Shown here piece by piece: positions 60,342-62,658 of a stretch of 64,000 nt of DNA. The translations under genes were made by a program, and so were the position numbers. Numbering within the stretch: position 1 is the first letter of the stretch; every line of letters begins with the position of its first letter. The DNA comes from Acidobacteriota bacterium (GTDB lineage: Bacteria; Acidobacteriota; Terriglobia; Bryobacterales; Bryobacteraceae), in NCBI GenBank assembly GCA_016185425.1, contig JACPNQ010000009.1, forward strand, positions 1-64,000. Reading direction: 5' to 3'. Under the pieces are notes generated by a model. That model saw only the letters and a program-made list of their open reading frames with translations. It had not been told where the DNA came from and searched no databases.

Positions 60342-60410
60342 GAACGGCGCCGTTCAACCCGGAATATCGCCGTTCGACCGCGAATATCCCCGTTCGATGG
60401 CCAGTACTTG
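60342..60410. repeat. Palindrome and three tandem 20-bp repeats upstream of the radical SAM gene
   Basis: A perfect 14-bp palindrome GAACGGCGCCGTTC (60342-60355) leads into three 20-bp units starting at 60351, 60371 and 60391. Each begins CGTTC; units 1 and 2 agree at about 16 of 20 positions and unit 3 at about 12. The array ends at the -35 element of a candidate promoter and lies between the divergent TonB receptor and radical SAM genes. It looks like a multi-site operator. Confidence 0.6.
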
Positions 60411-60493: not shown

Positions 60494-62599
60494 ATGCACA
60501 AGCCCATTAAGTACGTAGAAAAGGCCGTCACCGTAACGGCGAACCTCGCCTGGCAAGTCTTCGACCGGCTGAATCAAATCAGCCCCAATCCTTCGTTCAC
60601 CCCGAAGTGGTCCGAGAAGCCGCTGCTGAAGAGCTACGAAAAGATGAAGCCGACCCTCGGATGGCCGCGCGAGACCGACTCGCTGTGTCCCAAGTGCATC
60701 CCGGAGTTGCGGAACAAGGTTGTGAACGGCGAAACGCCGGTGGAAGTGCTGCTGAACGAAAAGCGCGGCGAGATCAAGGCGCGCATCATCGAAAAAGACG
60801 GCAAGATCGTCATGGAGAAGGAATGCCCGATCCATGGCAAGTTCGAAGACTTGATGTCGATCGACCCGGCGTTCTCCAAGCACCTCGAAGACGTTTTCCC
60901 GGGCCGCGATATTCGCGCCCACAACGATGAGAAGCTGCACAATCATGGCAGCTCGACGATTACCCACGGCCGCGGTTCGGTGCTCACGATCGACCTGACC
61001 AACCGCTGCAATATGATGTGCGACCCGTGCTTCATGGACGCCAACCAGGTTGGCTTCGTTCATGAGCTGAGCTGGGAAGACATCAAGACGATGCTCGACA
61101 ACGCCATCTCGATCAAGCCGCGCCGCCAGATGTCGGTGCAGTTCTCGGGCGGCGAGCCGACGCTGTCACCGTACTTCCTCGACGCCGTGCGCTACTCGCG
61201 GAAAGTCGGGTACAACTCGGTGCAGGCCGCGACGAACGGCATCGAATTCGCCAAGAGCCCGGAATTCTGTAAGCAGGCCGCCGAAGCGGGCCTCCGCTAC
61301 GCCTACCTGCAGTTCGACGGTATCGGCAACGAAGCCAACAGCCACCGCCGCGTGGGCAATCTGTTCGACGTAAAGCTGAAGGCGATCACGAACCTGCACA
61401 ACGCGGGCGTCGACATCGTCCCGGTCATTACAATCGTCAACGGCATTAACAATGAGCAGGTGGGCGCCGTTGTCCGTTTCGCGCTCGACAATCCGAAGAT
61501 CATCAGCTTCCTCTCGTTCCAACCGGTTTCGTTCACGGGCCGCGATGAAGAAGTGACTCCGGAACGCCGCGCGGCGCAGCGCTACACATTGAGCCACCTG
61601 GCGCACGACGTGAAAAACCAGGTCGGTCTGGGTGTTCCCACGCGCGACTGGTTCCCGATCTCGTTCATGTCCACCTTCTCCGATTGGGCCGATCTGGTCC
61701 ATGGGCCGGAGCATGAGTGGGGCCAGCTCTCCTGCGGCTGCCACCCGAACTGCGGCATCGGCATGGCGCTGATGGTCGATAAGGAAACAAAGGAAGCCCG
61801 TCCGGTGACCGCCTTCCTGAATGCCGACCGTTTGGCCAAGGACATCGCCCGCATCAACGACGCGGCTCGCGGCAAGAAGATGTCGATCCTCGGTGTCTCC
61901 CTTGCGCTGCTGCGGAATTACAAGCCGTTTGAAGCTCCGACCCACTTCCGCCTGGTCGATTTGTTGCAGAAATTCGATAAGTGCTTCGGCGCGACCGGCC
62001 GCAGCTATGGCAAAGTGACCGGCGATCGGACGATGCAAGACATCCAAAAGCGCCGCGCCGACCGTTGGAACTTCCTGTTCATCGCCGGCATGTGGTTCCA
62101 GGATCTCTTCAACTATGACTTCCGGCGCACGGAACAGTGCATCATCCCCTACGCCACGCAGCAGGGTGAAATCAGCTTCTGCGCCTACAACACCGGTGTG
62201 GGTTGGCGGAACATTATCGAAAAGATGCACATGACCGCGACGCTCACCAAGTGGTACGACGAGCACGGGCGGCACGAGATTTTCGCCGGCGGCAAGAGCG
62301 TCAATCTCGACTCGAAGTTGCACAAGCTGCTGCTGAACGAAGAAGACGTGAATCGCGAACGCCAGCACGATCTCGACGGTATGGCCAAGAATGCTCGCGA
62401 AGAGAAGATCAAGGCTCGCGACGAGAAGATGAAGGACCAGGCCAAGAACGCGGAGATGGCGAAGCTGTATCGCCAGCACGTGCTGAAAGAGCCGCAGCCG
62501 GAAGGCGGTTTTGTGCCGCTCGGCGCGGTGGGCGGAATTGCTCCGGCCGCTCCGAAAGCCTCGGAAAAGAACGAGGAAGTAGGCTCGTTCGGCGATTAG
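60494..62599 (+). CDS. Cysteine-rich radical SAM enzyme, tetraether/membrane-spanning lipid synthase-like
   Basis: 701 residues. N-terminal 'SLCPKC' (C65, C68) and 'KECPIHGKF' (C111) form the rubredoxin-like zinc or cluster site seen in the MJ0619/Tes class. The radical SAM motif CNMMCDPC has C172, C176 and C179; 'SGGEPTLSP' (218-226) binds SAM. Further cysteines C414, C416 and C420 ('SCGCHPNC') and C549 and C563 ('ISFCAYNTGVGWRN') suggest auxiliary clusters. A Lys/Glu-rich tail follows residue 605. Relatives join lipid alkyl chains (tetraether synthesis in archaea, membrane-spanning lipids in bacteria) or methylate pterins. Acidobacteria make the membrane-spanning iso-diabolic acid, so this is a plausible candidate. 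Radical SAM is certain; the reaction is inference. Confidence 0.85.
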   Translation: MHKPIKYVEKAVTVTANLAWQVFDRLNQISPNPSFTPKWSEKPLLKSYEKMKPTLGWPRETDSLCPKCIPELRNKVVNGETPVEVLLNEKRGEIKARIIEKDGKIVMEKECPIHGKFEDLMSIDPAFSKHLEDVFPGRDIRAHNDEKLHNHGSSTITHGRGSVLTIDLTNRCNMMCDPCFMDANQVGFVHELSWEDIKTMLDNAISIKPRRQMSVQFSGGEPTLSPYFLDAVRYSRKVGYNSVQAATNGIEFAKSPEFCKQAAEAGLRYAYLQFDGIGNEANSHRRVGNLFDVKLKAITNLHNAGVDIVPVITIVNGINNEQVGAVVRFALDNPKIISFLSFQPVSFTGRDEEVTPERRAAQRYTLSHLAHDVKNQVGLGVPTRDWFPISFMSTFSDWADLVHGPEHEWGQLSCGCHPNCGIGMALMVDKETKEARPVTAFLNADRLAKDIARINDAARGKKMSILGVSLALLRNYKPFEAPTHFRLVDLLQKFDKCFGATGRSYGKVTGDRTMQDIQKRRADRWNFLFIAGMWFQDLFNYDFRRTEQCIIPYATQQGEISFCAYNTGVGWRNIIEKMHMTATLTKWYDEHGRHEIFAGGKSVNLDSKLHKLLLNEEDVNRERQHDLDGMAKNAREEKIKARDEKMKDQAKNAEMAKLYRQHVLKEPQPEGGFVPLGAVGGIAPAAPKASEKNEEVGSFGD

Positions 62600-62620: not shown

Positions 62621-62658
62621 TCGGGCCGCTGGTACTACCGGCGGCCCGAAGTTTTTTT
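62621..62658 (+). terminator. Strong rho-independent terminator after the radical SAM gene
   Basis: A 13-bp stem (one T-G wobble) with loop ACT: 62621-62633 pairs with 62637-62649, starting TCGGGCCGC and ending GCGGCCCGA. It is followed by AG and seven T (62652-62658). It lies 22 nt after the stop codon. Confidence 0.92.

Follow-up and report, generated by a model that had tools for sequence, protein, structure and literature searches.

Gene and immediate surroundings

The long-type Tes homologue described here is encoded at positions 60494–62599 on the plus strand of the window, which is the whole 64-kb stretch of acidobacterial DNA that was analysed. The open reading frame begins with an ATG codon preceded by GGGAG and specifies a protein of 701 amino acids, whose assignment draws on its match to the NCBIfam Tes model, its match to PDB entry 7TOL, its position in a phylogenetic tree, and the resemblance of its predicted fold to 7TOM. 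Cysteines are located at positions 65, 68, 111, 172, 176, 179, 259, 414, 416, 420, 497, 549, and 563, and the protein carries the motifs CPKC (65–68), CPIHG (111–115), and CNMMCDPC (172–179). All cysteines named in an initial annotation of this gene (C65, C68, C111, C172, C176, C179, C414, C416, C420, C549, and C563) are present, as are the motifs it had listed.

Upstream of the gene is a 20-bp direct repeat of 2.4 copies (60350–60397, no strand assigned; Tandem Repeats Finder score 68). When up to three mismatches were allowed, the repeat unit gave two matches, both within this same region, and none elsewhere in the 64-kb window. The initial annotation had described the region as a repeat-rich promoter. 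The repeat itself is real, but no sigma70-like site was found within it, and a sigma70 promoter at this position was rejected because the only such site detected is intragenic (0.9 expected by chance). The accompanying suggestion that the gene encodes a regulated key enzyme is not supported, since the argument leans on this repeat. The downstream region fits its earlier description better, as hairpin searching and folding do reveal an intrinsic terminator on the plus strand (62621–62649), consisting of a 13-pair GC stem followed by T7. The hairpin has a folding energy of −29.6 kcal/mol (z −3.2; two of 200 shuffled sequences fold equally well) and is the strongest of three terminator-like sites in the window, where 3.3 are expected by chance.

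In a comparison of 37 loci, no neighbour family recurs widely across those of the long type. Apart from the gene itself, one family (F1) is widespread, and it consists mostly of the antisense shadow ORF of the gene. The 437-aa ORF on the minus strand of the window (61166–62479) is an antisense shadow as well. A TonB receptor adjoins the gene, and its plasmid matches with at least 80% coverage come only from Granulicella or Acidisarcina (five of five such records).

Family assignment and predicted fold

The Pfam domains detected in the window protein are Radical_SAM (3.7e-19) and Zn_ribbon_HMPTM (4.1e-13), the second of which presumably takes its name from an old pterin-methylase annotation of MJ0619. 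The best NCBIfam model is that of Tes (NF045702; 319.1 bits, E 4.5e-95), at a score below the 450-bit cut-off of this family. The TrsS model (NF045646) yields 208.6 bits, which is below its cut-off of 490 bits, and the model for intein-bearing Tes yields 165 bits. Scores for the NirJ, AhbC, and MoaA models are 53–67 bits, and among the best 25 of 50 NCBIfam matches, these models together with SPASM and others span 27–67 bits, far below their respective cut-offs. A search of the PDB places the MJ0619 structure 7TOL at the top (E 4.5e-63), with MoaA next at 1.7e-4.

A predicted model of the protein (mean pLDDT 76.6, pTM 0.75) matches 7TOM with a TM score of 0.86 by target length (E 3.2e-40), and the first non-Tes fold match is MoaA at rank 3 (E 3.5e-9). 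Because the input alignment combined the window protein with 56 of the 80 archaeal Tes loci, the model is biased toward the Tes fold. Sequence identity to archaeal Tes proteins is 27–36%. By its sequence matches, the window protein is a member of the Tes/GDGT-MAS (MJ0619) branch of radical SAM enzymes, in agreement with the class originally proposed from its cysteine pattern, and its nested position in the Tes tree (see below) points the same way.

When plasmid sequences were searched with the window protein, distantly related radical SAM proteins were matched in 24 records, with 23–30% identity among the best 15 of the 24. Nine of these matches (H1–H9) are from Haloarchaea, Mycobacterium, Mycolicibacterium, Nonomuraea, and Persicobacter, and most align from the rubredoxin site onward. 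They possibly represent further Tes/TrsS-type groups.

Metal sites and conserved residues

Four metal sites are described for MJ0619 by Lloyd et al. (2022; PMC9433317). These are a rubredoxin-like site (C9/C12/C33/H36), an N-terminal [4Fe-4S] cluster (C73/C77/C80/His), the radical SAM cluster, and a C-terminal [4Fe-4S] cluster with a labile Met439 ligand, the last of which is concluded by these authors to carry the substrate via a sulfur–carbon bond. The equivalent ligands were surveyed in 181 homologous rows, comprising 80 archaeal, 51 long-type, 30 bacterial Tes, three intermediate, 16 TrsS-like or other sequences, and one MoaA. Three long-type rows are fragments and were set aside where gapped, which leaves 49 or 50 covered rows. 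All protein features given below lie on the plus strand.

Three of the four sites are conserved in the long type. The rubredoxin-like iron site is formed by C65, C68, C111, and H114 (60686–60835), which match the four MJ0619 ligands (PMC9433317), and all 50 covered long-type rows have it in full. Relative to Tes, about 22 additional residues separate the two halves of the domain. The site is likewise complete in 77 of 80 archaeal Tes rows, the others being two end gaps and one partial site (L134). The radical SAM CX3CX2C motif (C172, C176, and C179; 61007–61030) is also present in 50 of 50 covered long-type rows. By alignment, the loop F342-QPVSFTGR-350 (61517–61543) corresponds to the SAM-gating loop containing Q268, S271, and R275 of MJ0619, and its residues Q343, S346, and R350 are invariant in 39 of 39 long-type rows. 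Finally, alignment and motif lines place the ligands of the C-terminal auxiliary [4Fe-4S] cluster at C420, M533, C549, and C563 (61733–62182), where the three cysteines are assigned by conservation. The same region includes Tyr553, which aligns with Tyr459 of MJ0619, and an extra cysteine, C414. The cluster cysteines, the methionine, and the tyrosine are complete in 49 of 49 covered long-type rows. The placement of a C414 equivalent in the three intermediates differs between two alignments, and by eye it is present in the two that were displayed.

The initial annotation had anticipated four metal sites, and it is here that the long type departs from Tes. None of the three cysteine ligands of the N-terminal [4Fe-4S] cluster occurs in any of the 50 covered long-type rows, and a single row (L191) aligns a histidine in the column of the fourth ligand. 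By alignment, these ligands are replaced by a cysteine-free loop containing D145, H149, H151, and S154 (60926–60979), and the entire stretch from the rubredoxin site to the radical SAM motif is devoid of cysteine in 49 of 50 long-type rows, with one stray cysteine in L079. The four loop residues are among 156 positions that are invariant over 39 long-type rows, and residues 140–157 have low pLDDT in the predicted model. In contrast, all four N-terminal ligands are found in 112 of 113 Tes rows (80 archaeal, 30 from the phylum, and three intermediate), and the sole exception, L119, keeps two of the three cysteines and is located at a contig edge.

Overall, the long type shares with Tes/GDGT-MAS (MJ0619; 7TOL, 7TOM; NF045702) the fold, the rubredoxin-like site, the radical SAM motif, the SAM-gating loop, the active-site tyrosine, and the C-terminal cluster ligands with a labile methionine. 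It differs in lacking the N-terminal [4Fe-4S] ligands, in the rubredoxin-domain insert, in its subthreshold score against the family model, and in N- and C-terminal extensions that bring its length to 701 residues compared to about 500. The C-terminal extension (62339–62596) is charged and helical, with a helix predicted at residues 616–663, is poorly conserved, and is absent from Tes. TrsS-like sequences, among which L175 is the sole row that passes the TrsS cut-off, also have the rubredoxin site and radical SAM domain in common with the long type, as does the TrsS (seleno)protein family (NF045646). However, their pattern of ligands is the opposite of that of the long type. The 16 TrsS-like or other rows keep the N-terminal ligands in 15 cases, and have complete C-terminal cysteines in eight, the methionine in five, and the tyrosine in three. 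These comparisons suggest that the long type is probably a variant of Tes that would work like Tes but fails one of the defining features tested.

Descent of the long type

A phylogenetic tree was computed for 62 of the 181 rows and rooted on TrsS-like rows, with pterin, heme, and peptide radical SAM enzymes left out. The 19 long-type rows included form a single clade (support 100/100). This clade joins three bacterial four-cluster Tes sequences, the intermediates L051, L053, and L054, again with support of 100/100. These three proteins are 539–549 residues in length and, unlike the long type, have complete N-terminal cluster ligands in all three cases. The long type is nested within bacterial Tes (100/98) with archaeal Tes outside, and a quick tree agrees. 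The four-cluster acidobacterial Tes proteins belong to the same larger clade but retain all four metal sites (N-terminal ligands in 30 of 30 rows), whereas TrsS-like rows form a separate clade.

A constraint that groups the 34 four-cluster Tes rows to the exclusion of the long type costs 103 log-likelihood units and is rejected by the AU test (p-AU 0.000165). Row L093, which is labelled TrsS-like, sits among Tes sequences in the tree, and when this stray row is left free, the same constraint costs 79 log-likelihood units (p-AU 2.8e-5). L093 and four other rows have long end branches, and the branch leading to the long type is itself long, at 1.58 changes per column, which calls for caution. 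Given that the long type is nested in four-cluster Tes, the absence of the N-terminal cluster is most readily interpreted as a loss, with the long type being a derived Tes.

Two genomes of the phylum each have a Tes protein nested inside the archaeal clade, L087 (G282:C2:333901-335319) and L088 (G294:C18:102242-103660), and L087 is at most 57% identical to Bathyarchaeota Tes. Their presence in these genomes would reflect either gene transfer or bin contamination.

Distribution and gene associations

An orthologue with at least 64% identity is present in 30 of 31 good-quality genomes, including that of the window. The exception, G021, gives only a generic match (5e-5), and in two genomes (G001 and G005) the gene is split into two contig-end pieces. 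The window genome, which is 93.7% complete, carries one Tes-family gene, with MoaA as the next-best match. We also surveyed 395 genomes of the phylum with completeness of at least 90%, calling the long type at E ≤ 1e-120. It occurs in 180 of these, namely in 54 of 54 genomes of the window genome's own class (the window genome included; this class count was deduced from list order, with 20 of the 215 non-match genomes listed) and in 126 of 341 outside it. Four-cluster Tes proteins that exceed the curated cut-off, here termed Tes-proper, are found in 33 genomes, a count that omits G430 (418 bits, below the cut-off), and 13 of the 33 also carry the long type.

As a proxy for ether-lipid genes we used DUF2229, which we take to be a domain of Ger/PlsA-type ester-to-ether reductases. 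The search matches the control organism Thermotoga maritima but also Lactococcus lactis, so a match is not a specific mark of Ger/PlsA. DUF2229 is strongly associated with four-cluster Tes (25 of 33 versus 64 of 362 genomes, p 1e-11). For the long type there is no such link among the 395 genomes (37 of 180 versus 52 of 215, p 0.40; the Elb and AGPS routes to ethers lie outside this comparison), and the 93.7% complete window genome has no DUF2229 match. Cytochrome oxidase subunit 2 shows another pattern, being present in 174 of 180 long-type genomes versus 111 of 215 others and in 10 of 20 genomes with Tes-proper alone. The link between oxidase and long type persists when counted by family (39 of 40 versus 26 of 44, p 1.4e-5). 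Memberships for all of these associations were read by eye from tables, and shared descent was corrected, by family count, for the oxidase only.

Several genomic arrangements were observed in the course of this survey. A DUF2229 match is located about 2.3–2.4 kb from a four-cluster Tes gene on the same strand in G204 (C20:59513-64044) and G258 (C59:1631-6031), and on the basis of this proximity the two genes may be a candidate brGDGT gene pair. Long-type and four-cluster Tes genes are close neighbours on one strand at L055 (7817–12000), L056 (5990–15480), and L057 (6255–13491), which derive from three genomes of one family and are separated by about 245 bp in L055; proximity of the two gene types is noted for genomes G283, G105, and G147. 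In family f24, G165 (L069, L070) and G228 (L071, L072) each carry two long-type copies, one longA and one longB, where longB is 48–58% identical to the window protein. Other f24 genomes likewise show two long-type matches.

Candidate function and alternatives

We consider it reasonably probable that the long type is a derived Tes-family enzyme that couples two saturated acyl chains at their methyl-branched termini, most likely iso-C15 chains of ester phospholipids, to form membrane-spanning iso-diabolic acid. The earlier proposal of a lipid-tail coupling enzyme is supported as a plausible role. By analogy with the mechanism described for MJ0619 by Lloyd et al. (2022), a 5′-deoxyadenosyl radical would take a hydrogen from one chain end, the resulting chain carbon would be bound by a sulfur atom in the C-terminal cluster, and a radical on the second chain would then displace it to create a C(sp3)–C(sp3) bond. 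The substrates would be acyl (ester) chains with specificity for iso-C15, electrons might enter via the rubredoxin site or directly, and loss of the surface-exposed N-terminal cluster could be an adaptation to life in air. A Tes relative that is class-wide and independent of ether genes is what an iso-diabolic acid synthase would be expected to look like.

Lipid data are consistent with this proposal at the level of the class at best. Across 17 cultures from subdivisions 1 and 3 of the Acidobacteria, iso-diabolic acid is reported to account for 20–40% of the fatty acids, and its reported range covers subdivisions 1, 3, 4, and 6 (PMC13274423); we infer that the class of the window genome is that of subdivisions 1 and 3. 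In addition, the MJ0619 pocket is described as binding a bacterial ester phospholipid (PMC9433317). Edaphobacter aggregans, which makes both iso-diabolic acid and brGDGT, is reported to have one Tes homologue with 32% identity to the Methanosarcina acetivorans protein, and the top bacterial Tes homologues given in the same report are acidobacterial (Zeng et al. 2022). Since the window protein has 27–36% identity to archaeal Tes, the E. aggregans homologue may itself be a long-type protein. That report also contains closer homologues from Solibacter and Koribacter, which probably belong to the four-cluster class.

Other observations weigh against a simple equation of gene and product. One of two M. 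acetivorans Tes homologues, when expressed, is reported to have given no GDGT and traces of macrocyclic archaeol (PMC8941075), so membership of the family does not guarantee the product. For Solibacter usitatus, two Tes homologues but no detectable iso-diabolic acid are reported, for which the authors offer the alternative that the intermediate may not accumulate (PMC10087280). Family members G019 and G020 carry the long type, and if one of the two S. usitatus homologues is also of this type, then presence of the gene is insufficient. The score of the window protein below the Tes cut-off, the missing cluster, and the lack of conserved neighbours at long-type loci likewise count against the proposal.

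Among other identities, a role as a pterin, heme, molybdopterin, or peptide-modifying radical SAM enzyme finds some encouragement in the name of the N-terminal Pfam domain, which presumably reflects the pterin-methylase annotation once attached to MJ0619. We regard this as very improbable, and the NCBIfam and PDB scores and the fold largely refute it. The corresponding models stay at 27–67 bits among the best 25 of 50 NCBIfam matches, and MoaA trails Tes widely in both the PDB search (1.7e-4 versus 4.5e-63) and the fold search (3.5e-9 versus 3.2e-40). Thus, the clustering with such enzymes that the initial annotation had named as a refutation is not seen in scores or fold, the enzymes themselves being absent from our tree. 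Furthermore, Lloyd et al. report that they were unable to corroborate a pterin role even for MJ0619 (PMC9433317).

A second alternative, which accepts the family but assigns a different product, is unlikely yet deserves more weight. The enzyme might serve ether lipids (brGDGT only), bridge chains, methylate C5 or C6 of iso-diabolic chains, or generate a sulfur-bearing lipid. The long branch and the lost cluster leave room for new chemistry, MJ0619 is reported to have given sulfur-bearing lipid species under limiting SAM (PMC9433317), and the coexistence of the long type with four-cluster Tes in 13 of 33 genomes means that the two need not share a function. However, all checked residues tied to radical storage and coupling are conserved in the long type, which is also unlinked to the ether-lipid proxy and has no DUF2229 partner in the window genome. 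Less probable still is the idea that an Mss-type enzyme performs tail coupling in this organism and that the window gene serves some unrelated purpose in lipid or cofactor metabolism. The reaction proposed here resembles that of Mss from T. maritima, a tail-to-tail coupling of fatty acids, and Mss function is said to be confirmed by expression in Escherichia coli (Sahonero-Canavesi et al. 2022, cited in PMC11604127 and PMC13274423). Although Mss matches occur in 11 of 97 acidobacterial MAGs from the Black Sea, Tes homologues occur in 17 of the same 97 (PMC11868695), and a later E. coli strain carrying both mss and ger yielded no membrane-spanning ether lipid (PMC11604127). For T. maritima, from which the characterised Mss comes, neither the Tes model at 1e-30 nor the TrsS model at 1e-20 gives a match. 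This comparison via the models is indirect and does not establish the Mss-like kinship suggested in the initial annotation. Gms and GrsA/GrsB are radical SAM enzymes that also act on membrane-spanning lipids, and they are set apart by their description. Gms is described as a SPASM-domain protein that holds two auxiliary clusters, and only a single cluster is most likely for GrsA/B (PMC11186832).

Implications for acidobacterial membrane lipids

Acidobacterial Tes homologues have already been proposed in print as possible makers of membrane-spanning lipids (Zeng et al. 2022; PMC10087280). In the literature searched, which did not extend to subscription papers, preprints, or supplements, we found no description of the N-terminal cluster loss, of the long-type class, or of its separation from Tes-proper by ether genes and oxidase. 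Iso-diabolic acid is a component from which brGDGT, a proxy for soil temperature, is built, and the sources consulted regard the enzyme that makes it in Acidobacteria as unproven. With a candidate that is found throughout the class and is readily recognised by its sequence, the identity of this synthase can be tested directly.

More tentatively, and with somewhat less than even confidence, the candidate function can be extended to a division of labour in Acidobacteria between two distinct tail-coupling enzymes of archaeal-type ancestry, in which four-cluster Tes would serve ether lipids (brGDGT) and the long type, with three metal sites and adapted to air, would be the general ester iso-diabolic acid synthase of aerobic members. 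The loop with D145, H149, H151, and S154 may hold another metal. The distinction between the long type and Tes-proper provides a genetic marker by which producers of ester lipids may be told apart from those of ether lipids. If the proposal is true, the long type would show how an archaeal-type enzyme for C(sp3)–C(sp3) coupling adjusted to aerobic conditions through the loss of a cluster, and that the coupling chemistry can proceed without the N-terminal cluster.
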